From an uncultured Pseudomonadota bacterium (GTDB lineage Bacteria; Pseudomonadota; Alphaproteobacteria; RF32; CAG-239), in assembly GCA_902799835.1 (NCBI GenBank), contig CADCCF010000001.1, forward strand, positions 186,001 through 250,000: 64,000 bases of DNA, read 5' to 3'. Below the pieces are notes generated by a model. It saw only the letters and a list, made by a program, of their open reading frames with translations. It was not told the DNA's origin and made no database searches. Numbering within the stretch: the stretch's first letter is position 1; each line of letters begins with the position of its first letter. Below are positions 43,822 through 64,000 of this stretch, one piece after another. A program made the translations under genes and the position numbers.

Positions 43822-44175
43822 ATGAACTTTATTAAGAAAAACATGTGGACATTTGCAGCTGTAATGTTGGTTGCTATGTTCGGTTTGATTGAGCCTGCCG
43901 CTGCGGATTCCGTTATGGGTATTGCAGCTAAAAAGGCTTTGCAGGCTTTCCAAGCCACTCGTACCATTGTATTCATCGTTGGCGGTTTCGGTTTGGTAGG
44001 TATCGCTTGCGCTGCTATTTTTGGTAAGATGAACTGGAAATGGTTTGCTTTCTTGGCTGTTGGTTTGGCTATCTTGGCTGCCGCCGGATCGATTGTGGAC
44101 TACGCCACAACTCAGAACCCCGGAATGGATAGTGGTATTGCTGGCTTGACCGATACAAGTACACAAGCACAATAA
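43822..44175 (+). CDS. VirB2-like T4SS major pilin (copy 1)
   Basis: 117 residues: signal peptide (to about residue 27, AAA-D), then a core with two hydrophobic helices separated by the short polar loop FGKMNWKW, as in VirB2/TrbC pilins. The two helices (about TIVFIVGGFGLVGIACAAIF and FAFLAVGLAILAAAGSIV) would form the pilus subunit hairpin. An AAGGAG site precedes the ATG at 43822. It shares the GGFG...IFGxxNWKW signature with the next two genes. A strong hairpin follows it. Confidence 0.82.
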   Translation: MNFIKKNMWTFAAVMLVAMFGLIEPAAADSVMGIAAKKALQAFQATRTIVFIVGGFGLVGIACAAIFGKMNWKWFAFLAVGLAILAAAGSIVDYATTQNPGMDSGIAGLTDTSTQAQ

Positions 44176-44299: not shown

Positions 44300-44833
44300 A
44301 TGATAAATTATAAAAAAATATTTTTCTGCTTGCTTGCCTCGATTTTGATTATTGGAGGTAATTTTTTGTTTGTGGATAAGGCATGGGCTGCAGGTAAGTA
44401 TGGAGGAACTATTAAGTATGACCAAAACACCGGTGACGTAACCGGAGGAAAGCCGAGCACGAGTGTTTTTAATACCAGTGCTCCTCAAGATGTGCCAAGT
44501 AAAACAGATAATTCCAATGCTACTGATGATGGCTATTCCAGCGCCTGCAAGGGAAATACTGGTGATGGTATTTTTTCATCATTGGTTTGCACTGGAAGAC
44601 TGCTTTTTGCCGATTTGCGTGAATTGATTTATATTGTAGCAGGATTTGGTATTATTGCGGTTGGTGTCGGCGGTATATTTGGCAACCTTAACTGGAAATG
44701 GCTGGGTGCGATTATTATTTCGCTGGTGATTATTGCCACGGCTGGTGAGTTGATAACAGCAATGTTGGGTGATGCCCATGGCATTGAAAACGAGTATAGT
44801 GCAAATGCGGTACAAGCCAGTTTACAGGAGTAA
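44300..44833 (+). CDS. VirB2-like pilin (copy 2) with N-terminal insertion
   Basis: 177 residues: signal peptide to about residue 31 (AWA-A), an extra hydrophilic segment of about 70 residues rich in Gly, Ser, Thr and Asn with two cysteines, then the VirB2 core with IYIVAGFGIIAVGVGGIFGNLNWKW and a second helix. The insertion distinguishes it from copy 1 and could be exposed on the filament. A GGGAGGA site precedes the ATG. It ends 17 bases before copy 3. Confidence 0.78.
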   Translation: MINYKKIFFCLLASILIIGGNFLFVDKAWAAGKYGGTIKYDQNTGDVTGGKPSTSVFNTSAPQDVPSKTDNSNATDDGYSSACKGNTGDGIFSSLVCTGRLLFADLRELIYIVAGFGIIAVGVGGIFGNLNWKWLGAIIISLVIIATAGELITAMLGDAHGIENEYSANAVQASLQE

Positions 44834-44850: not shown

Positions 44851-46548
44851 ATGACAATATCAAATAAACTTTTTCTCAAAAACTTAATAATATTTATCAT
44901 AGTTTTTATGGTGGTCAATCTGCTTGAAACCAAAGATGTATGGGCGGCAAGTCAAATTATTGCCGAGGTTCGCGACAAAGCTGCGCATGTTATTGAGCAT
45001 TATAAACCGATTGTATATATATTGGGCGGTTTCGGTTTGGTTTGCGTGGCCTGGGGTGCTATTTTTGGCAAAATGAATTGGAAATGGTTTGCTAATTTGG
45101 CAATTGGTTTGTTTTTGGTTGCTTGGATGGGACATTTGATAGATTACTTCACTAAAAACAAAGCCAGCTCCACTGCCAGTGCAAAATTTAGTTCGACTAG
45201 CAAATTGGTAAAATTCGGTGATACAATCAATAAAAAATCTTTGGCCGACGGAGGAAATTTCTCGTCACTGCAGATAAAGGGGTCAGGTGAAGCCGGTGAG
45301 TATAGTTCCTTGCTTAGTAGCAATCAAGATTCTATTGCTTATTTGGAATCTGATTGGGTCAAAACAGCGATTGAGCGTTCCGGCAATAGCTTATATGCCG
45401 CTCGAGCCGCCAGTACCTTAGTCTCAGGTTCGGCTTATAACATGAAAGACAGCAAAGGGAGCATCGTTGATGCCAAAAAAATCCTGCAAACCGGTAGTGA
45501 TTGGGAAGAAGCGGCTCAAAATGCCGATAAAAAATATAAAGATTTGGTTGCCGCTCGAGCCGGTAGTATGTTGTCTTCAGGTTCAGCCTATAATGTAAAA
45601 GACACCAAAGGTGAAGATTATGATATCAAAGCTGCGCTTCGTCAAGGCAGTGATTGGAAAGAAGCTTCGGACAAATATAAAGATGATATGCATGTTGCCG
45701 GTGTTGGATCTAACCTCGAAAATGGTAGTTTTAAAGGGCCAAATGAAGATGGCACTGAGCATGTGTATCTGGCCGGTGGTAACGCGATGACTAACTTTAG
45801 TAGAGGTTTTTCTAAGGCTGCCGGAGGCTTTGGTGACGCTCAAACCTTTTTTGAATTTGGTAGTTATGACGGCTATGAATTTGGCAACAGCGATTATGCC
45901 CAATATGATATGGCAGATTTGGCCGGTGAAATGATGTATGATACCCAATCAATGATGCTGGGTTATGAGGTCGATGATTATAGCGGTTTGAATACCGAAA
46001 CTCGACGAGGTGATTTTGTGAGTGATAATTTCGATGGTTTGAACACCGAAACACGGAGGTCTTATTCAGGTACGACACTGGGTAACCTGAATACAGGTAG
46101 TAATCTTGTTGGCAACAGTGGTAATGTCGGCAGTGACTGGGCTGATACTGATGTAGCCTATACCGCCAGTAATCTGGTTGATGGTGAGCTCACCTATACC
46201 GATGCCGATGGTGAGCATACTGACAGTGCTGACGGAAATACTCATACCACACTTGCCGGAGCTAATGATGATTACGGCTACCAAGGTGATGTGGATACCA
46301 ATATGAACAGTGCTGATGGCTATCAAAATGTTAACACTAATATGAATAGTGCGGAAGGCTATCAAAATGTTAACACTAATATGAATAGCGCTAGAGGCTA
46401 TCAAAATGTTAACACCAATATGAACAGTGCCGCCGGTTATAAAGACGTCAAAACCAATATGAACAGCCCAGCCGGCTATCGTGATGTCAAAACCAATCTC
46501 AATTCGCCTGCCGGCTATAAAGATGAGGAGACTCATTGGGGTAGATGA
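44851..46548 (+). CDS. VirB2-like pilin (copy 3) fused to a long repeat-rich C-terminal domain
   Basis: 565 residues. The first 105 residues are a full VirB2 unit: signal peptide (to about 33), two helices and the loop FGKMNWKW. The remaining 460 residues are hydrophilic. Two diverged 51-residue repeats (AARAASTLVSGSAYNMKD... and AARAGSMLSSGSAYNVKD...) begin near 45397 and 45550, a partial third near 45697, two GLNTETRR units lie near 45985 and 46036, and six tandem 13-residue repeats (consensus V-x-TNMNSAxGYxN) fill 46291-46524 at the very end. Start at 44851 has AGGGGA upstream. A pilin fused to a surface-like domain is unusual; function unknown. Confidence 0.78.
   Translation: MTISNKLFLKNLIIFIIVFMVVNLLETKDVWAASQIIAEVRDKAAHVIEHYKPIVYILGGFGLVCVAWGAIFGKMNWKWFANLAIGLFLVAWMGHLIDYFTKNKASSTASAKFSSTSKLVKFGDTINKKSLADGGNFSSLQIKGSGEAGEYSSLLSSNQDSIAYLESDWVKTAIERSGNSLYAARAASTLVSGSAYNMKDSKGSIVDAKKILQTGSDWEEAAQNADKKYKDLVAARAGSMLSSGSAYNVKDTKGEDYDIKAALRQGSDWKEASDKYKDDMHVAGVGSNLENGSFKGPNEDGTEHVYLAGGNAMTNFSRGFSKAAGGFGDAQTFFEFGSYDGYEFGNSDYAQYDMADLAGEMMYDTQSMMLGYEVDDYSGLNTETRRGDFVSDNFDGLNTETRRSYSGTTLGNLNTGSNLVGNSGNVGSDWADTDVAYTASNLVDGELTYTDADGEHTDSADGNTHTTLAGANDDYGYQGDVDTNMNSADGYQNVNTNMNSAEGYQNVNTNMNSARGYQNVNTNMNSAAGYKDVKTNMNSPAGYRDVKTNLNSPAGYKDEETHWGR
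46291..46524 (+). repeat. Six tandem 39-bp (13-codon) repeats
   Basis: In-frame units begin at 46291, 46330, 46369, 46408, 46447 and 46486, each 39 bases, encoding V-[DNK]-TN-[ML]-NS-[AP]-x-GY-[QKR]-[ND]. Units 2 and 3 are nearly identical in DNA; units 5 and 6 have drifted most. Only eight codons (including the stop) follow. Such arrays can change copy number by slippage or recombination. Confidence 0.95.
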
Positions 46549-46564
46549 TGTTGGAATAATAATT

Positions 46565-46596
46565 AAAAAAAAGCGAGGTTGTCCTCGCTTTTTTAA
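46565..46596 (+). terminator. Rho-independent terminator after the VirB2-like cluster
   Basis: AAAAGCGAGG, a TTGT loop and CCTCGCTTTTTT form a GC-capped stem with an A-run on the left and T-run on the right, 17 bases after the third pilin's stop. Confidence 0.92.
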
Positions 46597-46678: not shown

Positions 46679-47218
46679 ATGAAAAAAATATTGATTGTTT
46701 CATCAAGTTTGCGTCAAGGCAGTAACTCTGAAATTTTAGCGCAAGAAGCTGCTCGTGGTGCCCAAGATGCCGGACATGAGGTAGAATTTTTAAGCTTAAA
46801 AGATAAAAATATCAATTTTTGCAAAGGTTGTTTGGCTTGTCAAAAGATTGCCAAATGTGTTATCAAAGATGATATGGCTGATATGATTGGCAAAGTACAA
46901 AATGCTGATGTTTTGATTTTTAGCACGCCGATTTATTATTACGAAATGAGCGGCCAGCTTAAAACTTTTTTGGATAGATGTAATCCTTTATTTTCTCAAG
47001 AAAATAAGTTTGTTGATGTTTATTTGATTACCACATCTTATGATGATGATAAAAATGTTGCGCAAGCCGCCGCTTTGGGGCTGCAGGGATGGGTGCGTTG
47101 TTTCCCGCAAGCAAATTTCGTTAAAGTTTTGCCTTGCGGTGGGATCAACGAAGTTAAAGAAATTAATGAGCATAAAGAGTTACTGGCCAAAGCCTATGAG
47201 TTGGGCAAAAATATCTAA
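46679..47218 (+). CDS. NADPH-dependent FMN reductase / flavodoxin-fold oxidoreductase
   Basis: 179 residues with a flavodoxin-like fold: the FMN phosphate loop SSSLRQGSNSEIL near residue 8, the cysteine motif CKGCLACQKIAKC near residue 49 (typical of iron-sulfur-flavoprotein-like reductases), and FSTPIYYYEMSGQLKTFLDR for the flavin ring. Expected to reduce flavins or quinone-like acceptors with NAD(P)H; the substrate is open. It lies between two T4SS blocks but has its own promoter and terminator, so a functional link is not indicated. Confidence 0.9.
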   Translation: MKKILIVSSSLRQGSNSEILAQEAARGAQDAGHEVEFLSLKDKNINFCKGCLACQKIAKCVIKDDMADMIGKVQNADVLIFSTPIYYYEMSGQLKTFLDRCNPLFSQENKFVDVYLITTSYDDDKNVAQAAALGLQGWVRCFPQANFVKVLPCGGINEVKEINEHKELLAKAYELGKNI

Positions 47219-47272
47219 AAATTGGTTTATATCATCCCCACTTTGTCCGTGGCTTCAAATCCCACAACCAAC

Positions 47273-47301
47273 AAAAAAAGAGGGCATAAACCCCTCTTTT
47301 T
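47273..47301. terminator. Bidirectional terminator between flavodoxin-like gene and tRNA-Ser
   Basis: AAAAAGAGGG and CCCTCTTTTT pair around a seven-base loop. T-runs exist on both strands, so it can end both the plus-strand reductase message and the minus-strand tRNA transcript. Confidence 0.88.
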
Positions 47302-47305
47302 GTAT

Positions 47306-47396
47306 TGGCGGATAGAGTGGGATTCGAACCCACGGTACCCTTTGGAGGTACACACGATTTCCAATCGTGCGCCTTCGACCACTCGGCCATCTATCC
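47306..47396 (-). tRNA. tRNA-Ser (anticodon GGA)
   Basis: A class II tRNA of 91 bases. The acceptor stem GGATAG/CTATCC closes the molecule, a G discriminator and encoded CCA follow. The anticodon arm CACGATTGGAAATCGTG gives anticodon GGA (reads UCC/UCU), the long variable arm is present, and the T arm carries GGTTCGAATCC. The D arm has the GGCCGAGTGGTCGAAGGC pattern typical of tRNA-Ser. Its 5' side faces the virB3-virB4 operon across 258 bases. Confidence 0.97.
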
Positions 47397-47577: not shown

Positions 47578-47655
47578 GATAACCTTATAAGCAGTATTGC
47601 AAACCGATTGCTAATATCTTATCATTTATTGCGAGATGTGTGCTGGAGAGCTGTT

Positions 47656-47946
47656 ATGCGTGAAATGATACTAAAAGCTGTGGCAAATCCTCCTAAGATA
47701 TTATGGGGGCCGTTTTTGCCTGTTATGCTGAATTTAGGCATTCAGTTTCCGATGCTATTTATGATGGTGGGGACGGTTGATGTTAACCCACTGTGGTTTT
47801 TGATATTGATATTGCTGGGACACACATTTTGCATTTTTTTGGGGGCTAAAGAGCCTCACATTTCCAGCATGATTCAAGCCTTTGGCCAAGCAGCCAAAAA
47901 AAGTACCAACCTTTATAAAGTAAAGGGGAATAAATTTGCGCCCTGA
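47656..47946 (+). CDS. virB3: VirB3-like T4SS protein
   Basis: 96 residues with two adjacent hydrophobic helices near residues 18-60 and a polar C-terminus, the size and topology of VirB3, an inner-membrane component that works with VirB4. The N-terminal stretch with a Pro-Pro before the first helix is typical. The ATG at 47656 has GGAGAG upstream; the longer frame from 47608 has no such site. It overlaps virB4 by 11 bases, the usual virB3-virB4 pairing. Confidence 0.82.
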   Translation: MREMILKAVANPPKILWGPFLPVMLNLGIQFPMLFMMVGTVDVNPLWFLILILLGHTFCIFLGAKEPHISSMIQAFGQAAKKSTNLYKVKGNKFAP

Positions 47947-50365
47947 TTTTGATTTTTTATCGATTTTTGTTGAAGGTCTGTCCGGCTCTGAGATTATTGT
48001 GGCCATCATCGGCTTTATCTCAGCAGCCGCTTTTGCCGGTTTATGGGCAACCAAATTCGGTTATTTGGTTTTGCCGCACCCAACCGAGTCAAGAGTATCT
48101 GACTTTATGCCGTTTGAAAAACTTTTGTCTGACGGAATGACGATTCGTTGTTATAACGGGTCGTTAGCGCGCGTTTTTAGAATCAATGGTGTCGATTTAA
48201 ACTTTGCATCAAGCGAAAAAGTTGCATCAATGATGGAGGCTCGCAAAGCATGGATTGACGGCATGTCTGACTTGCAAATTACTTGCAGAGTTATTACTGT
48301 TCGTGAACGTGTTCCCTTGGAAGATAATGTCAAAAACTTTAATAATCCGCTATTGGAAAAAATCTCCGAGGTTTGGGAAGAAAATGTTGATAGAGTTTTC
48401 TTTAACACACACTATGTTGTTTTATCAGTCCCTGATCGTCGTGAGGCCTTAAAAGATTTGAATTATGCTTCACAAGCATTGACCGCTACTTTGAGTGAAT
48501 ATGGTGTTGAGCCTTTGGCTGAAACAGATGGATCTTCGGCGGCTGATAGTCCTTTTTCGGTTTATGCCAAACTTTGCTCTCCCGTCACAAAACCCAGTCC
48601 TTTGGTGCATGGTGCTCAAGGGGCTCAGCTCAATCAGATGTTGACAGCCGACCATATTCATTTCACTGATGAGAAAGGTATTATTAAATTCTTCTCCGGC
48701 GATAAAGAAGTTTATGAAATTGTGATGGGAATACGTTCTTCCGGTGATTATGTTGATGAAGCCATGACAGCATCTCTTTTGGCATTGGATTGTGAGTTAG
48801 TTTTGCTTCACAATATTCATGCCATATTCAAACCCAAAGCTCGTGCGCTTTTAATGCAGCAACAACGCATGGCTACCATGACCAGTTTTTCATCCAACGT
48901 GGTTGATCAATATAGTGAAGTTTTGGCGGCTATTGAAGATAGTGATGCCGATCACCAGGCCTTAACGGAATATTCCATGACTATATTGTTACGTGGTGCG
49001 AGTGTAGAAGAACTTGATTTCGCCGAAAGTGAAGTTCAACGTATATGCCGCCTGTTTGGTGTGACACCGGTTCGTGAAGGATGGGTTGCTCAGGCATCAT
49101 TCTTCAATCAGTTTCCGACCTATGAAGTTTTGCCACGCAACTATCGCTATCTTTCAAGAGTGGTTGCCTGCTCGGTTTCATTTGATAAACCATCCGAAGG
49201 CTTTTCAAAATCTGACTGGGGAAATGGAGCAATTTCTGTTTTTCGTACCACCTCAGGTTCGGCGTATCGTTTTCAGTTCCACGTGTCATCTGAAGATTCG
49301 GCGGTTGCTCACTGTTGCATTATCGGTCCGACCGGTCAAGGTAAAACTACTTTGCTTACCTTCCTTGCCGGTCAAGCTATGCGTCATGCCGATTTGAGGG
49401 TTTTCTTTTTTGACCGCCACTTGGGTGCGCGCATTTTTACTCATGCTGTCCAAGGAGCTTATATCGGTTTTGATGGTGACGAGAAAAATGTATCACTCAA
49501 TCCATTTGACTGCAGTAATACTCCGAATAATCGCGCCTTTTTGCGTCGTTGGATGCGAGCCATAACTTTAGTCGACGATTCGGTTTCAGAAAAAGAAATT
49601 GCTCGTGCCGTAACTACAGCTTTTGACTATTTGCGTCCGGAAGAGCGCGTTATGACCAATCTTTATAAAAGTTGTTTTTCGCCGACCGGAAATATGCGTC
49701 GCGAATTGTTCAAATGGGTGAATCCTGATCAGTATGGAGCTATTTTTAATGGTACCAGTGATAGCTTGGATTTGAAAAGCAAACGTTTTATGGCTTTTGA
49801 TTTTACGCACATTTTTGAGGATGAAACACTGGCTCCCGCGGTCATTAGCTATATTATGCACCGTATTCAATCAGAGACCGGCGAAACCGGTGTTCCATCA
49901 TTGATTATGATTGATGAAACGGCGCCTATGTTAAAACACCCGATGTTTAGGGATTATTTTATTATCGGTTTGCAAGAAGGACGTAAAAAACGTCAGGCTT
50001 ATTTGTGCGCTTTCCAACAACCAAGCATTATTGATAAATTAGGTGTGGGTGAGGTTATTCGCGGACAATGCCAAACTGTTATATTTTTCCGCAACCCTCA
50101 GGCAATGCCGGAAGATTATGCTAACTGGAATTTAACTGATGCGGAAACTGATTTTATTTTCGGTCGCTCTTATCGCGATTTCCCCTATGCTATTTTACTG
50201 TCGCGTCCTTCAACCGGAGAATCTGTAATTCTGGATGTCGATTTAAGTGGTTTGGGACCATATCTGAAATTGTATAACTCTGGTCGAAAGAATGTTTTGC
50301 TGGTTGAAGAGTTAGTCAAAGAATACGGCGAAGATAATTTTGTTACAAAATATTTAAATATTTAG
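47936..50365 (+). CDS. virB4: VirB4-family T4SS ATPase
   Basis: 809 residues. A short hydrophobic N-terminal helix (about residues 17-38) and the CagE/VirB4 N-terminal domain precede the ATPase core: Walker A IIGPTGQGKTTLLTF near residue 465, FFDRHLGARIF, the LNPFD motif, Walker B LIMIDETAPML near 655, and the GRKKRQAYLCAFQQPS sensor region. VirB4 powers pilus assembly and substrate transfer. The start is TTG at 47936 inside the end of virB3, with AAGGGGA six bases before it; no better start exists nearby. Confidence 0.93.
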   Translation: MRPDFDFLSIFVEGLSGSEIIVAIIGFISAAAFAGLWATKFGYLVLPHPTESRVSDFMPFEKLLSDGMTIRCYNGSLARVFRINGVDLNFASSEKVASMMEARKAWIDGMSDLQITCRVITVRERVPLEDNVKNFNNPLLEKISEVWEENVDRVFFNTHYVVLSVPDRREALKDLNYASQALTATLSEYGVEPLAETDGSSAADSPFSVYAKLCSPVTKPSPLVHGAQGAQLNQMLTADHIHFTDEKGIIKFFSGDKEVYEIVMGIRSSGDYVDEAMTASLLALDCELVLLHNIHAIFKPKARALLMQQQRMATMTSFSSNVVDQYSEVLAAIEDSDADHQALTEYSMTILLRGASVEELDFAESEVQRICRLFGVTPVREGWVAQASFFNQFPTYEVLPRNYRYLSRVVACSVSFDKPSEGFSKSDWGNGAISVFRTTSGSAYRFQFHVSSEDSAVAHCCIIGPTGQGKTTLLTFLAGQAMRHADLRVFFFDRHLGARIFTHAVQGAYIGFDGDEKNVSLNPFDCSNTPNNRAFLRRWMRAITLVDDSVSEKEIARAVTTAFDYLRPEERVMTNLYKSCFSPTGNMRRELFKWVNPDQYGAIFNGTSDSLDLKSKRFMAFDFTHIFEDETLAPAVISYIMHRIQSETGETGVPSLIMIDETAPMLKHPMFRDYFIIGLQEGRKKRQAYLCAFQQPSIIDKLGVGEVIRGQCQTVIFFRNPQAMPEDYANWNLTDAETDFIFGRSYRDFPYAILLSRPSTGESVILDVDLSGLGPYLKLYNSGRKNVLLVEELVKEYGEDNFVTKYLNI

Positions 50366-52628: not shown

Positions 52629-53450
52629 ATGATAAACAGAGCGCTTTTTGTTTGGTTTTTGATGCTAGGACTAAGTTGCAATATCCTAGTAGCTAATGCT
52701 GATGATGCAGAGGTTAAGCGGAGTAACGGTTATAGTGCTCAGGGTGAACTTTTAATTCCTTATGATATAGTCAAACGCTGTAACTTGGGAGATGGTGGTA
52801 CTTTAGAGTTAACAGATGGATGTTTATATGCTTTGGCTTGTGATAAACATCAAGTCTTTCAAGAATGGGTTCGAACCAAAAAAGGTGAAGGTAAAGACGT
52901 AAGTATTGATGAAAATGAATATAACGGAGATTATGAAATTAGTTGTATGATGGCTAAATATACCAAAGCTGATTTGGACTACATCATTTCGCGACTTATC
53001 TCAGGAGGTAATCACGAAAATTTGGCAAAAGAAAAAGCCGGCTATGAAATTGCGCCAACTTTGGGTGCGGAAGGAGTAGCAGTGGATGCCTGTTCTTCAT
53101 TAAAAACACAATGTGATGAAGCAAAAATTGAACACAGCGATACATCTACGCAACCTATACCTTGTTTTATGTATGAAAAATGTGAGGAATCTTTACAACA
53201 AATTCAGGCAATCAAAGATTGTTCTGATGATCAGGGCAGTACACGTTGTTCTATTCAGGCTAATAACACACTAACCGCTGACAGCACCCAAGTATTATCA
53301 GATATAGTTCACATCAAATCTATGATGAACAGAAATGAAATTGCCAACAACATAGTCAACATAATATCTAAAATGGAGATAGATAAGGGAAAGTGTTTAG
53401 ATGATATAAAAAAGTCAGCTGAATCAGGTACCAAAGGAGAAAGCAAATGA
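52629..53450 (+). CDS. Exported cysteine-containing protein of the T4SS locus
   Basis: 273 residues from the ATG at 52629, one base after the preceding stop codon, with AAAGGGGA upstream. Signal peptide ends near residue 23 (VANA-D). The mature protein has about ten cysteines, pairwise spaced (for instance CFMYEKC), and a helical C-terminus. No known family. Overlaps the next gene by four bases (ATGA), so it belongs to one translational unit with its neighbours. Confidence 0.7.
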   Translation: MINRALFVWFLMLGLSCNILVANADDAEVKRSNGYSAQGELLIPYDIVKRCNLGDGGTLELTDGCLYALACDKHQVFQEWVRTKKGEGKDVSIDENEYNGDYEISCMMAKYTKADLDYIISRLISGGNHENLAKEKAGYEIAPTLGAEGVAVDACSSLKTQCDEAKIEHSDTSTQPIPCFMYEKCEESLQQIQAIKDCSDDQGSTRCSIQANNTLTADSTQVLSDIVHIKSMMNRNEIANNIVNIISKMEIDKGKCLDDIKKSAESGTKGESK

Positions 53451-54532
53451 ATAAGAGAATAATATGTTTTGTGTTCATTATGCTTGGCTCTGTATTTATA
53501 GCTAAAATTTCTTATGCCGGTACAGATATTATTAATACAGTGTTGTTGAAAGCAGGCAATGTTATAGATAAAGTTTCGCAAAAATATGAGGGTATTTCGG
53601 TGAAAGTGCGCGAACTGACCGAAGGAAAGTTGTTTGCGCTTGACGAAAATACCGCCGATATGATTCAAAAAGCCAAAGATCAAAAAGATTCTATTCAAGA
53701 GAAAATCGATAAAGTTCGCGCCGCAAAAGAATTTATGACTCATGCGGATGAAGCAATACTTGATCGTTACAATACCATGTTAAGTCAGCTTGAAGCCTCG
53801 GATACTCAAGCAAGAGATATTGTTAAACAAAGAGGGTGGACATTTGGCAAGGATAATACTGATGATAACAGTGATGATGACTATTCCGACGGTAGTGATG
53901 ATTATGGTTTTGATGACGGGCAGGCACAAATAATTTCTAAAGATAGTGTTGGCAGTGAAAATTATAGTAGTGATGACAGTAAAAAGACCAATGGCAAAAT
54001 TGATAGCGATGAAGTTAGCAGCCAATATGATGATTCTGAAGACGAATATTATTATAGCGGCGACATGGATGATGATTATGACGATAGCGGTTCTGTTATT
54101 ACATCTAATGATAATTCAAAACAAAATTCCGACAATAACATAAAAACAACCGAGTCAAAAGAAATTAAAAAGTCAGCAGATTCTATCGAAAATTCGACTG
54201 CTCAATCAACAACAAGAAAAAAATTTAGTTCCTTAGATAGTGATAATTCAGACAAAAAGCAGGTCGATGTTTCCTCAAATTTGAACAAAATGGCATCATC
54301 TGAGCAAAAGACATCGCCAAATAAAGCGAGTATTGGCAATTCGCAAAAAATAAGCACTTTGGATAGCGCAAGCAAGACATCGAAAGAAACACCAGTAAAT
54401 ACTGATTTAAAACAACAAAATATTTTGTTAAAGGATAAAGTCTCATCTGCTCCCAGCGTCCGCAGAAGATCTTTTACATCAGAAAAAGCTGCATCCAACG
54501 AAATGGAGGGATCAAATGTTGCAAAAAACTAG
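53447..54532 (+). CDS. Exported protein with helical N-domain and acidic Asp/Ser-rich tail
   Basis: 361 residues: signal peptide (ending SYA-G near 25) and an amphipathic helical domain of about 110 residues containing QKAKDQKDSIQEKIDKVRAA. A 190-residue low-complexity region follows, first rich in Asp, Ser, Gly and Tyr, then in Ser, Lys, Thr, ending basic. The helical part has the look of VirB5/TrbJ-type minor pilins but no diagnostic motif. Starts within the previous gene's stop and overlaps the next gene by 17 bases. Confidence 0.72.
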   Translation: MNKRIICFVFIMLGSVFIAKISYAGTDIINTVLLKAGNVIDKVSQKYEGISVKVRELTEGKLFALDENTADMIQKAKDQKDSIQEKIDKVRAAKEFMTHADEAILDRYNTMLSQLEASDTQARDIVKQRGWTFGKDNTDDNSDDDYSDGSDDYGFDDGQAQIISKDSVGSENYSSDDSKKTNGKIDSDEVSSQYDDSEDEYYYSGDMDDDYDDSGSVITSNDNSKQNSDNNIKTTESKEIKKSADSIENSTAQSTTRKKFSSLDSDNSDKKQVDVSSNLNKMASSEQKTSPNKASIGNSQKISTLDSASKTSKETPVNTDLKQQNILLKDKVSSAPSVRRRSFTSEKAASNEMEGSNVAKN

Positions 54533-60598: not shown

Positions 60599-61366
60599 AT
60601 GAGTGAAAATGAAATTTCTAATCAACAAATTACAAGTAATTCGGATATAAAAGCAATTTCCGGAAATACATCCGGTCAACCTCAATATATTGAACAAATT
60701 GATCAAACCGAACGTTCGGCCAAGATGTTTTATTATCTATGGATTTCAAGATTTTTTGTCCTTACGGCAGTCTTGACAGTAAGTTTCTTAGTTCTAGCAT
60801 CTTTAGCTTTGTTCAGATTAGCTCCGCGTGTTACGGTTGAACCTTTATTGTTGATTAAAAACAGCAGTTCTGATGAGTTGGTCAGTAATGAGGGTATTAC
60901 TTTTGATATGCCATCTAAAGATTTGCTGATGAAAATGTATATTAAACAGTATGTCACATTGCGTAATACGATAATTCATGATCGTACGGAAATGCAAACC
61001 AGATGGATGGCCGGTGGCATGGTAAATTTTCTGTCTTCGCCGACAGTATATAATGAATTTGGCGCTCCTTTAGTGAATACCTGGGAACAAATCATTAGCC
61101 AGCCAATTACCAGAGAAGTTGATGTTACATCAATTACAAGACAAGGTGGTGAACGCTCGCAAATTTGGAAGGTTGATTTTAAAACATATGACTTGTCCAA
61201 TCAGGCAGGAAAAGAATCAAGTGCAGACAGTATTAAAGTAAGATACTGGACATCATCAATCACTGCAAGATTTATTCCTGACAGAGCTTTTTCATTCTAC
61301 CGCTTAATAAATCCGCTTGGTTTTACAGTTACTCGCTACTCACAAACGGAAGTTAACATATTCTAA
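60599..61366 (+). CDS. VirB8-like T4SS protein (copy 1)
   Basis: 255 residues: a polar N-terminal cytoplasmic segment of about 45 residues, one membrane helix at about 55-78, and a periplasmic domain of about 175 residues. Features typical of VirB8/TrbF are RVTVEPLL right after the helix, LLMKMYIKQYVTLRNT, and KVRYWTSSITARFIP with a terminal NPLGFTVTRY. VirB8 is a core bridging component of the inner-membrane complex. It has no ribosome site of its own; the nearest AGGAGG is about 20 bases upstream, so translation is probably coupled to the giant gene before it. Confidence 0.83.
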   Translation: MSENEISNQQITSNSDIKAISGNTSGQPQYIEQIDQTERSAKMFYYLWISRFFVLTAVLTVSFLVLASLALFRLAPRVTVEPLLLIKNSSSDELVSNEGITFDMPSKDLLMKMYIKQYVTLRNTIIHDRTEMQTRWMAGGMVNFLSSPTVYNEFGAPLVNTWEQIISQPITREVDVTSITRQGGERSQIWKVDFKTYDLSNQAGKESSADSIKVRYWTSSITARFIPDRAFSFYRLINPLGFTVTRYSQTEVNIF

Positions 61367-61672: not shown

Positions 61673-62416
61673 ATGGTAGAAGAGATTAAGTATGGACAAC
61701 CACAACCGCGTATGATTGCAGGAAGGCGCGCCCCCAATGCAACGGCTCCACATCGCTCTTCTAAAAGTAGCGATAATTTGTTTGTCGCTAATGTAGCCGA
61801 AAAACGTTATCTTTGGACTGCTCGTGCTTTTGCTGTTATTACAGCGCTGAGCTTGTGTTGTAATATCGTATTGATTTTAGCCATTTTTCAAGTCGTTCCT
61901 TTGTACAGAATAGAACCGTTTCTGTTAAGTTTTCAGAATCAATCGGAGCAGGTCTATAATATTATGCCGGTGACCGGAGAGCTGCGCAATCGTCGTGCAA
62001 TCACCGAAGTGTTTGTAAGAGATTATGTGTTGCAGCGTAGCGCTTTTACCCGTGATGCAGATGTTGCAAAATCTCGTTGGACGCCAGGGGGCACAATTCA
62101 AGAAATGTCAACTGCTAAGATATACCAAGAATTTTGGGATAATATTGGTAAAAAAGCTTTGTCAGTTATTCAAGAAAAAGGCATGGAACGCAAGGTTAAG
62201 ATTCTTTCCATAAATGAATTGACTAATGGAGTATGGCAAGTTGAGTATGAAGCAAGCGACACTTATCCGGATTCTACAAAGCCAGAGATAAGCTACTGGA
62301 CTGCTTCATTAAGTGTTATGTACCGCCGTAAAACGGTTAAATATGGTGAGAGGTTGAAAAATCCGTTAGGGTTTACTGTTACAAAATATGCGTTGAGTCG
62401 CAACAGCGTGGAGTAG
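61673..62416 (+). CDS. VirB8-like T4SS protein (copy 2)
   Basis: 247 residues with the same layout as copy 1: a basic N-terminus of about 50 residues, a membrane helix near 55-78, then VVPLYRIEPFLLSF and a periplasmic domain with VFVRDYVLQRSAF, RWTPGG (copy 1: RWMAGG), ISYWTASLSVMYR and a final NPLGFTVTKY identical in pattern to copy 1. The two are clear paralogues, diverged, flanking the lipoprotein gene. An IcmL/DotI protein would have a similar topology, but the VirB9-like neighbour favours VirB8. Confidence 0.84.
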   Translation: MVEEIKYGQPQPRMIAGRRAPNATAPHRSSKSSDNLFVANVAEKRYLWTARAFAVITALSLCCNIVLILAIFQVVPLYRIEPFLLSFQNQSEQVYNIMPVTGELRNRRAITEVFVRDYVLQRSAFTRDADVAKSRWTPGGTIQEMSTAKIYQEFWDNIGKKALSVIQEKGMERKVKILSINELTNGVWQVEYEASDTYPDSTKPEISYWTASLSVMYRRKTVKYGERLKNPLGFTVTKYALSRNSVE

Positions 62417-62438
62417 ATTGGTCGTGAAAATACTTAAT

Positions 62439-64000
62439 ATGAAAAGATTTATACTGGCAATTGTTGCGTTTTGGGGTGTGTCACTGAGCGCGGCTCAAGC
62501 TCAGGTGAATCAACAAATAATGGATACAAGTGCCGATCAATCACAAGGCAACTATACGCCTATGAATATGGACTATGCTGGATTTAATTCTTTAGGTATG
62601 ACGCAGGCCGCATGGTTGGATCCTTTGCAAAATCTTGGTGAAGGACAAAGCAGACCGGCTTATTCCAAATACTATTGGACACCTGACTTGGTGTTGCCGA
62701 TACGTGTCCGCGAAGGTATGTTAACAATGGTTAATTTTCCAGAGTGGGAATTAATCGAAGATATTTATCTCGGCGATCAAAATACATTTGATGGTCAGAT
62801 ATCCGGTCCAAGCACATTGTTGCTGTACCCGCGCAGCGGGGCGCAAGTCGGTGTTGATACTAACGCGATTGTTTTTGGCCGTTCAGGTAACCGTTATGTG
62901 TTTTATCTTAAATCCGAAGCAGTTAATACGGAACGTTTGACTAATGCTATTATTGATATTGAGGTTGTTAACGATAATGTCCCTAATTCAGGAGGTGGGG
63001 TATCGCCATACAGCGGTAGTAAATCAGGTCTAGGATCTGGTAGCGGAACGAAAGGAGCTATTTCAAATTACACCAAACGATTTCAAAAAAGCGATTGGAT
63101 ACAGTCAATACCGGTAGATCCTAGTGATTTTAAGTTCGATTTGGAAGTTTATGTTCCCAATCCTGATGACGTGGTTATAGCTCCGGAAAGAGTTTGGCGT
63201 GATAATATATTTACATACATAGATTTGGGCAAGAAATCTTTAAATATGGTGCAAAGACCTGTTGTTAGTATGATTGTTGAACGTGTTGAAGTTCCGGTTG
63301 GATTTCGTGCCAAAGGACCGGATAATCGTTTAATAGTCGTCGAAGGTATTGGTGATATGGTTTTGCGCAACGGTAAACGTATAATCTGTATCAAAATGCG
63401 TCGTTCTGATGAAAGTGGTTTGGAATATGCTGTTGATTCTGCTGATTATTTGCCGCCGACATGGGATGTTGGTCCTGCTATTCCAAATGCACAAACCACA
63501 GGCATTGATAACAACATTAATCGCAATCTCATGCCGCAGGGTGCTTCTCAGGGTGCTCCCCAAGGTACCAACTATAACGGAGGTGTAGGAGGTGGTGCTT
63601 ACGGAAGTGGCAATTATGGTATGACATCGGTAGGACAGGTTGATATTCAAACAGGACAAGGTCAAATTATAGTTCCTGAGTATGCTAAATCCGGTAGCAT
63701 GGGCGGAGGATTCGGTGGTAATGCGGCAGATAATTTTGATTATTCTAAAATGCAACATATAAGTATTGATCAGTCGAATAGCGGATATGGTGCTGCTCCG
63801 CAATTTGCTTACGGATACGGCTTTAGTGGAGATGGCAGTCAAAATATATCAATCGAGCTCGGTACCGATGGTGATGTAAACAATTTGGAAAGCTTGTGGG
63901 GTAAATTGTCTACAAAATATAAAGAGCTTAGTCGGTTTACACCATTTTTCTCAGTCGACGCACCTGCTGATGGACAAGGTCGCGAGTTGTTTCACCTGAG
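62439..64000 (+). CDS. VirB9-like T4SS outer-membrane core protein with C-terminal SPOR-like domain (cut by window edge)
   Basis: At least 520 residues, open at the right edge. Signal peptide ends AQA near 22. The VirB9/TrbG N-domain is seen in VREGMLTMVNFPEWELIEDIYLGD and GNRYVFYLKSEA; the C-domain in PERVWRDNIFTYIDLGKK and GIGDMVLRNGKRIICI. A Gly/Gln-rich linker of about 130 residues leads to a segment (ESLWGKLSTKYKELSRFTPFF ... GQGRELFHL) that looks like the start of a SPOR peptidoglycan-binding domain. ATG 62439 is used; an in-frame GTG at 62424 is possible. Canonical VirB9 is about half this length. Confidence 0.82.
   Translation, partial: MKRFILAIVAFWGVSLSAAQAQVNQQIMDTSADQSQGNYTPMNMDYAGFNSLGMTQAAWLDPLQNLGEGQSRPAYSKYYWTPDLVLPIRVREGMLTMVNFPEWELIEDIYLGDQNTFDGQISGPSTLLLYPRSGAQVGVDTNAIVFGRSGNRYVFYLKSEAVNTERLTNAIIDIEVVNDNVPNSGGGVSPYSGSKSGLGSGSGTKGAISNYTKRFQKSDWIQSIPVDPSDFKFDLEVYVPNPDDVVIAPERVWRDNIFTYIDLGKKSLNMVQRPVVSMIVERVEVPVGFRAKGPDNRLIVVEGIGDMVLRNGKRIICIKMRRSDESGLEYAVDSADYLPPTWDVGPAIPNAQTTGIDNNINRNLMPQGASQGAPQGTNYNGGVGGGAYGSGNYGMTSVGQVDIQTGQGQIIVPEYAKSGSMGGGFGGNAADNFDYSKMQHISIDQSNSGYGAAPQFAYGYGFSGDGSQNISIELGTDGDVNNLESLWGKLSTKYKELSRFTPFFSVDAPADGQGRELFHL

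Follow-up and report, generated by a model that had tools for sequence, protein, structure and literature searches.

VirB2/TrbC/TraA pilins (Pfam PF04956) are small proteins of about 70-100 residues when mature, with a signal peptide and a two-helix hairpin, and are encoded in the neighbourhood of virB3 and virB4. In solved conjugative pili, both ends of the pilin core face outward and the inter-helix loop faces the lumen. In the Cag type IV secretion system (T4SS) of Helicobacter pylori, the VirB10-like CagY is a giant repeat-bearing subunit. The TrwL pilins of Bartonella are of ordinary size and are not known to carry added domains. Multiple TrwL pilins of VirB2 type are described in the literature, in which the Trw system is linked to host-cell recognition. 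For Anaplasma, 8-15 VirB2 paralogues are reported with diversity near the N- and C-ends, for which an exposed variable structure was proposed (PMC3556328), whilst in Anaplasma phagocytophilum a giant variable repeat extension is described on VirB6-3 and VirB6-4, with evidence of surface exposure from trypsin digestion (PMC7648143).

The 64,000-nucleotide stretch of DNA analysed here (the window) carries a T4SS locus with three pilin genes, the third of which (virB2c, hereafter P3) shares the signal peptide, two-helix hairpin and gene neighbourhood of the PF04956 pilins but continues into a 460-residue tail. As in the Anaplasma arrays, several virB2 paralogues (P1 to P3) belong to a chromosomal alphaproteobacterial T4SS; the Anaplasma pilins, however, are small two-helix proteins that vary by copy number and short hypervariable stretches, whereas P3 varies by long domains. 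Its added domains also set P3 apart from the Bartonella TrwL proteins, which are likewise multiple VirB2-type pilins. VirB6-3 and VirB6-4 are, like P3, T4SS membrane components with a giant extension, but they are polytopic VirB6 proteins rather than pilins, and CagY is a VirB10 whose parallel lies in the operon's own VirB10, with about 1,100 residues of repeats. No description of an extended or fused VirB2 was found in the open-access literature, available mostly as excerpts. Measured against that partial literature, the new element is the fusion of large domains to the pilin itself, a giant extension on another T4SS subunit being already known.

The P3 gene and its T4SS locus

The preliminary description of the window had proposed that a VirB2-type pilin is joined to a long tail, with the pilin unit in the N-terminal 105 residues. 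Both proposals held: P3 is a single open frame (Table 1) with orthologues elsewhere, and its first 105 residues comprise a signal peptide and a VirB2/TrbC-type hairpin core, matched by Pfam TrbC/VIRB2 at residues 10-91 (E 3.5e-4; the 21.2 bits fall short of the curated cut-off, 27.9). PF04956 was matched by 17 of 18 orthologous cores (best E 9.1e-7), and a 681-aa orthologue (L053) exceeded the cut-off at 37.5 bits. The leader, judged by eye, is hydrophobic and ends AWA/AS, and the AlphaFold model places core helices at residues 36-71 and 77-101 (pLDDT about 68-85). By sequence and gene context P3 is thus a member of the VirB2 pilin family, at odds with its usual size: at 565 aa it does not share the small mature length (about 70-100 residues), which characterises most of the family but does not strictly define it.

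Table 1. Features of the pilin array and adjoining T4SS genes in the window
Feature	Position in window	Strand	Remarks
virB2a (P1), plain VirB2-type pilin, probable major pilin	43822..44175	+	117 aa
virB2b (P2), pilin with extension of about 60 residues between signal peptide and core	44300..44833	+	177 aa
virB2c (P3), extended pilin	44851..46548	+	565 aa; open for 565 codons
P3 pilin core, residues 35-101	44953..45153	+	two-helix hairpin, constant-length loop; profile match at G000:C1:230953-231153
P3 tail, residues 106-450	45166..46200	+	low-confidence/disordered; 51-residue repeat pair and two GLNTETRR units
P3 tail C-terminus, residues 480-565	46288..46545	+	six 13-residue repeats, predicted beta strands
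Hairpin with T-runs, candidate terminator	46567..46594	.	just 3' of P3; consensus scan only
virB3-like	47608..47946	+	conserved part 96 aa, exact start unsure
virB4 ATPase	47936..50365	+	TIGR00929 VirB4_CagE E 4e-111; PF03135 E 2.3e-14
virB8-like 1	60599..61366	+	PF04335 E 1.5e-13
virB8-like 2	61673..62416	+	PF04335 E 6.5e-26
virB9-like (CagX)	62418..64000	+	PF03524 E 2.8e-13; extends beyond window end

Most of the repeats first described in the tail were recovered. Six 13-residue units begin at residues 483, 496, 509, 522, 535 and 548, with an offset-13 identity of 0.70 against 0.33 as the best of 200 shuffles, for which every window and offset was considered. Residues 379 and 396 are the first of the two GLNTETRR units. 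Two of the proposed 51-residue repeats were upheld (19/30 identical, against 11 in the best of 100 shuffles), whereas a third unit is at most degenerate. In the DNA, 39-nt and 153-nt repeats are present. Structure prediction with AlphaFold returned beta strands in the C-terminus (residues 480-564, pLDDT about 80) and low confidence or disorder ahead of it. Pfam and NCBIfam searches detected no domain above noise and no recognised adhesin domain in the tail, and, the pilin aside, nothing convincing in the giant P3 orthologues. Neither tail nor core matched the PDB by sequence or by fold (best Foldseek E 0.65, obtained with the low-confidence model), and a search of plasmids yielded no homologues of the tail.

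Two further pilin genes, absent from the preliminary description, lie close upstream of P3. P1 matched Pfam TrbC above the cut-off (E 2.3e-8, 34.6 bits), and P2 matched it at residues 107-153 (E 2.0e-4). The order P1-P2-P3-virB3-virB4 is kept in most loci. Between P3 and virB3, the window carries an FMN reductase gene and a tRNA-Ser (GGA, minus strand) at 46679-47396; the reductase lies at the same place in the sister species (G041), with no match seen in the other loci compared. Downstream, several large secreted coiled-coil or Cys-rich proteins are encoded between the virB4 and virB8 genes. An Asp/Ser-rich secreted protein (53447-54532) is only 70% identical to its G041 counterpart whilst its neighbours are 85-98% identical, and is probably another fast-evolving component of the operon.

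The virB9-like gene, cut by the window end, is whole in L073 (2419-4095). Beyond the window lie genes for a beta-flower repeat protein of 1,102 aa, a VirB10 of 1,523 aa and virB11. In the VirB10 (L073:7414-11985), beta-flower repeats (PF21785) occupy about 1,100 residues ahead of the TrbI domain, and the 1,102-aa protein preceding it (L073:4104-7412) consists largely of the same repeats, so that the pair constitutes a second giant repeat extension in the same T4SS. VirB6-like TrbL and VirD4-like genes are located elsewhere in the 1.5-Mb genome, in which the relaxase profile PF03432 found no match. With VirB4, two VirB8, VirB9, VirB10 and VirB11 matched, the system is a chromosomal vir-type (type IVA) T4SS; VirB3 enters this assignment by position, as the gene adjoins virB4 in the loci compared and its Pfam VirB3 match is weak (E 0.015, below the cut-off).

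Distribution and lineages of the pilins

Named records with the same core came from gut and rumen Alphaproteobacteria MAGs, including Azospirillum sp. CAG:239, and we take the carrier group to be the GTDB order RF32, family CAG-239. The core was present in 131 of 153 genomes of the order. Within the window's genus, pilins were missing from 9 of 35 members, and the same nine also lacked the operon's VirB4 (genus g1: G044-G046, G048, G049, G055-G057 and G064). The pilins and the machine are therefore kept or lost together, the whole T4SS apparently having been lost in these nine.

Phylogenetic analysis of 118 cores separated three orthologous lineages by position (6 label changes, against 56.5 in shuffles), with weak inner forks given the few columns available. 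P1, P2 and P3 are three ancient virB2 paralogues maintained across the family. Their lengths differ: most P1 proteins have 111-129 aa and most P2 proteins 110-310 aa, the additional residues of P2 lying mainly ahead of the core, and P3 ranges across loci from 114 to 1,896 aa. Among the 81 best-scoring core matches, which are P3-like, come from 78 genomes and were counted by hand, the open frame reached 200 aa or more in 74 cases and 400 aa or more in 57 (maximum 1,905). P3 is thus extended in nearly all species, with short forms (114-186 aa) in some. The call for homologues of the same fusion is answered across the order, where independent assemblies carry an extended orthologue at this locus, and the window's tail is just one lineage-specific version of a far wider phenomenon. 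Pilin and tail were not found as separate genes and did not trace to an assembly artefact, an outcome that the preliminary description had named as its refutation. Small ORFs between P3 and virB3 in four genomes (L063, L064, L070 and L071), considered as possible split genes, are not homologous to the tail.

Outside the family, a class-wide sample contained mostly ordinary pilins of 110-150 aa. A 380-aa P3 with a repeat-bearing tail was found in another family of the same order (G152). In other alphaproteobacterial orders, we observed a pilin of 442 aa whose N-terminal extension is collagen-like, with Pro/Gly-rich repeats (L151:5997-7325), and one of 570 aa that is extended by 440 residues at its N-terminus (L152:3972-5684). 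A 276-aa pilin was seen within a five-pilin array (L153). Polypilins, with two or three VirB2-type cores per frame, sit in pilin arrays of other Alphaproteobacteria (L154 in G302, L156 in G284 and L157 in G162), and the P2 of L050 (G037) is also a polypilin.

Anatomy and evolution of the extensions

Most members of the genus have a P3 with alpha-helical extensions on both sides of a central core. In the 1,896-aa P3 of G062, 770 residues (counting the signal peptide) precede the core and 1,049 follow, and the relatives reach up to about 800 residues ahead of the core and 1,250 behind. Within the genus, 18 loci share a conserved helical post-core domain. A profile of this domain, derived from 15 sequences (13 from the genus, one each from genera g9 and g14), also detected loci of g5, g7, g11 and g2 outside the training set (E 7e-15 to 6e-8). 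The possibility that this domain is hidden in the window's tail was rejected, as the profile search found none there, nor in G041, G040 or genera g4 and g12. Among the loci compared, G041 alone matched the window's tail over its full length, and the first part of the tail resembles the shorter tail of G058. Since the window carries beta repeats, G052 long alpha-helical rods (pLDDT 76-91 for residues 801-1009, AlphaFold) and one g4 genome Cys-rich repeats (L053), the grafted parts differ in kind.

Length varied solely outside the 69-column core, within which no aligned pilin had an insertion, and the inter-helix loop was always 7 residues. Extensions are thus restricted to the two core ends, where they would face outward. 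The second helix differs between lineages, being Ala-rich in P1 and bulkier and more polar in P3 (small residues 0.25 in P3 against 0.49 in P1; polar or charged residues 3.1 against 0.9). This suggests a specialised role for P3, which is therefore probably not the bulk pilin; equally, a polar second helix could mean that P3 does not polymerise.

Comparison of the window with G041 revealed 98% identity in VirB4, 97% in P1 and 97% in the P3 core, against 60% in the P3 tail. P2 behaved similarly, with 54% in its N-terminal extension and 84% in its core and C-end. The dN/dS of the P3 tail was about 0.20 over 426 codons, an approximate value as dS (1.8) is near saturation, and the final 47 residues of the tail were identical in the two species. 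The P3 tail thus evolves fast but under purifying selection, a combination that would be expected of a functional, exposed region without proving exposure. The G041 core (L051) carries a frameshifting 40-nt tandem duplication, downstream of which the tail stays open; a real mutation, phase variation and assembly error are all candidate origins.

Possible roles of the extended pilin

We see an even chance that P3 is a low-copy, surface-displayed extended pilin bearing a variable binding or shielding module. Its signal peptide would be removed, and the hairpin core would lie in the inner membrane with both ends periplasmic, before joining at low copy a structure made mainly of P1, whether at the tip, at the base or as a scattered subunit. 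Low copy is assumed because a filament of 500-1,900-residue subunits alone is sterically doubtful. The extensions follow the core in the window and lie on both sides of it in most relatives within the genus. Since VirB2-type pilins have both ends pointing outward, these parts would be displayed on the outside, and may act as a fast-evolving binding or shielding module toward host, mucus, phage or other microbes. That the tail decorates the filament or its tip, as previously suggested, is plausible from this topology.

The loss in P3 of the small-residue character of the P1 second helix would also suit a protein outside the filament, with the hairpin as an inner-membrane anchor and the extensions as a periplasmic T4SS scaffold or stalk, for example linking VirB3, VirB4 and VirB8 to the large VirB9 and VirB10 parts. 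Long helical rods are frequent among the extensions, several genera share the conserved helical post-core domain, and the operon encodes other very large envelope proteins in its VirB10 and the 1,102-aa beta-flower protein. Machine-like conservation would be expected of a scaffold, however, whereas no stretch measured in the locus is less conserved than the P3 tail and the P2 N-extension, G041 is the only one of the loci compared to match the window's tail over its full length, and P3 is short in some species; we regard a scaffold as unlikely. Still less probable, in our judgement, is that P3 is a precursor whose tail is cut off to leave a standard pilin and a released or secreted tail. C-terminal pilin processing is known, TrhA losing 5 residues and TrbC 27 (PMC11722321), release of VirB6 extensions has been proposed in Anaplasma (PMC7648143), and the last 47 tail residues do not differ between the sister species. 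Against this, the alignment contains no conserved junction after the core, the large N-terminal extensions in most genus members would need a second cut, and a standard pilin is already supplied by the P1 gene.

The low-complexity, repeat-rich nature of the tail and the frameshifting duplication in the core of the closest relative might instead be taken as signs of junk read-through, a decaying gene or an assembly or frameshift artefact. We find this barely credible: the orthologous gene is open over 200-1,905 aa across the family, the dN/dS of the tail and the identical C-terminus in G041 speak against decay, and the window comes from a 264-kb contig in a genome that is 99.9% complete.

We tentatively raise the further possibility, itself somewhat doubtful, that P3 is a modular display platform in which a conserved core, retained by the machine, carries unrelated, rapidly swapped domains (beta repeats, helical rods or Cys-rich segments) on its outward-facing ends. 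If so, T4SS target specificity or immune and phage evasion would be encoded in the pilin itself. VirB2-type pilins are usually viewed as uniform small blocks, and VirB5 or separate adhesins are where attachment specificity is usually sought. If a lineage of pilins across a whole family bears large, fast-evolving extensions at just the outward-facing ends, the pilin itself would become a display module. This raises the question of whether, and at which positions, giant subunits are tolerated by a conjugative-type pilus, and it hints at a way in which gut Alphaproteobacteria, widespread but little studied, may make contact with their surroundings.
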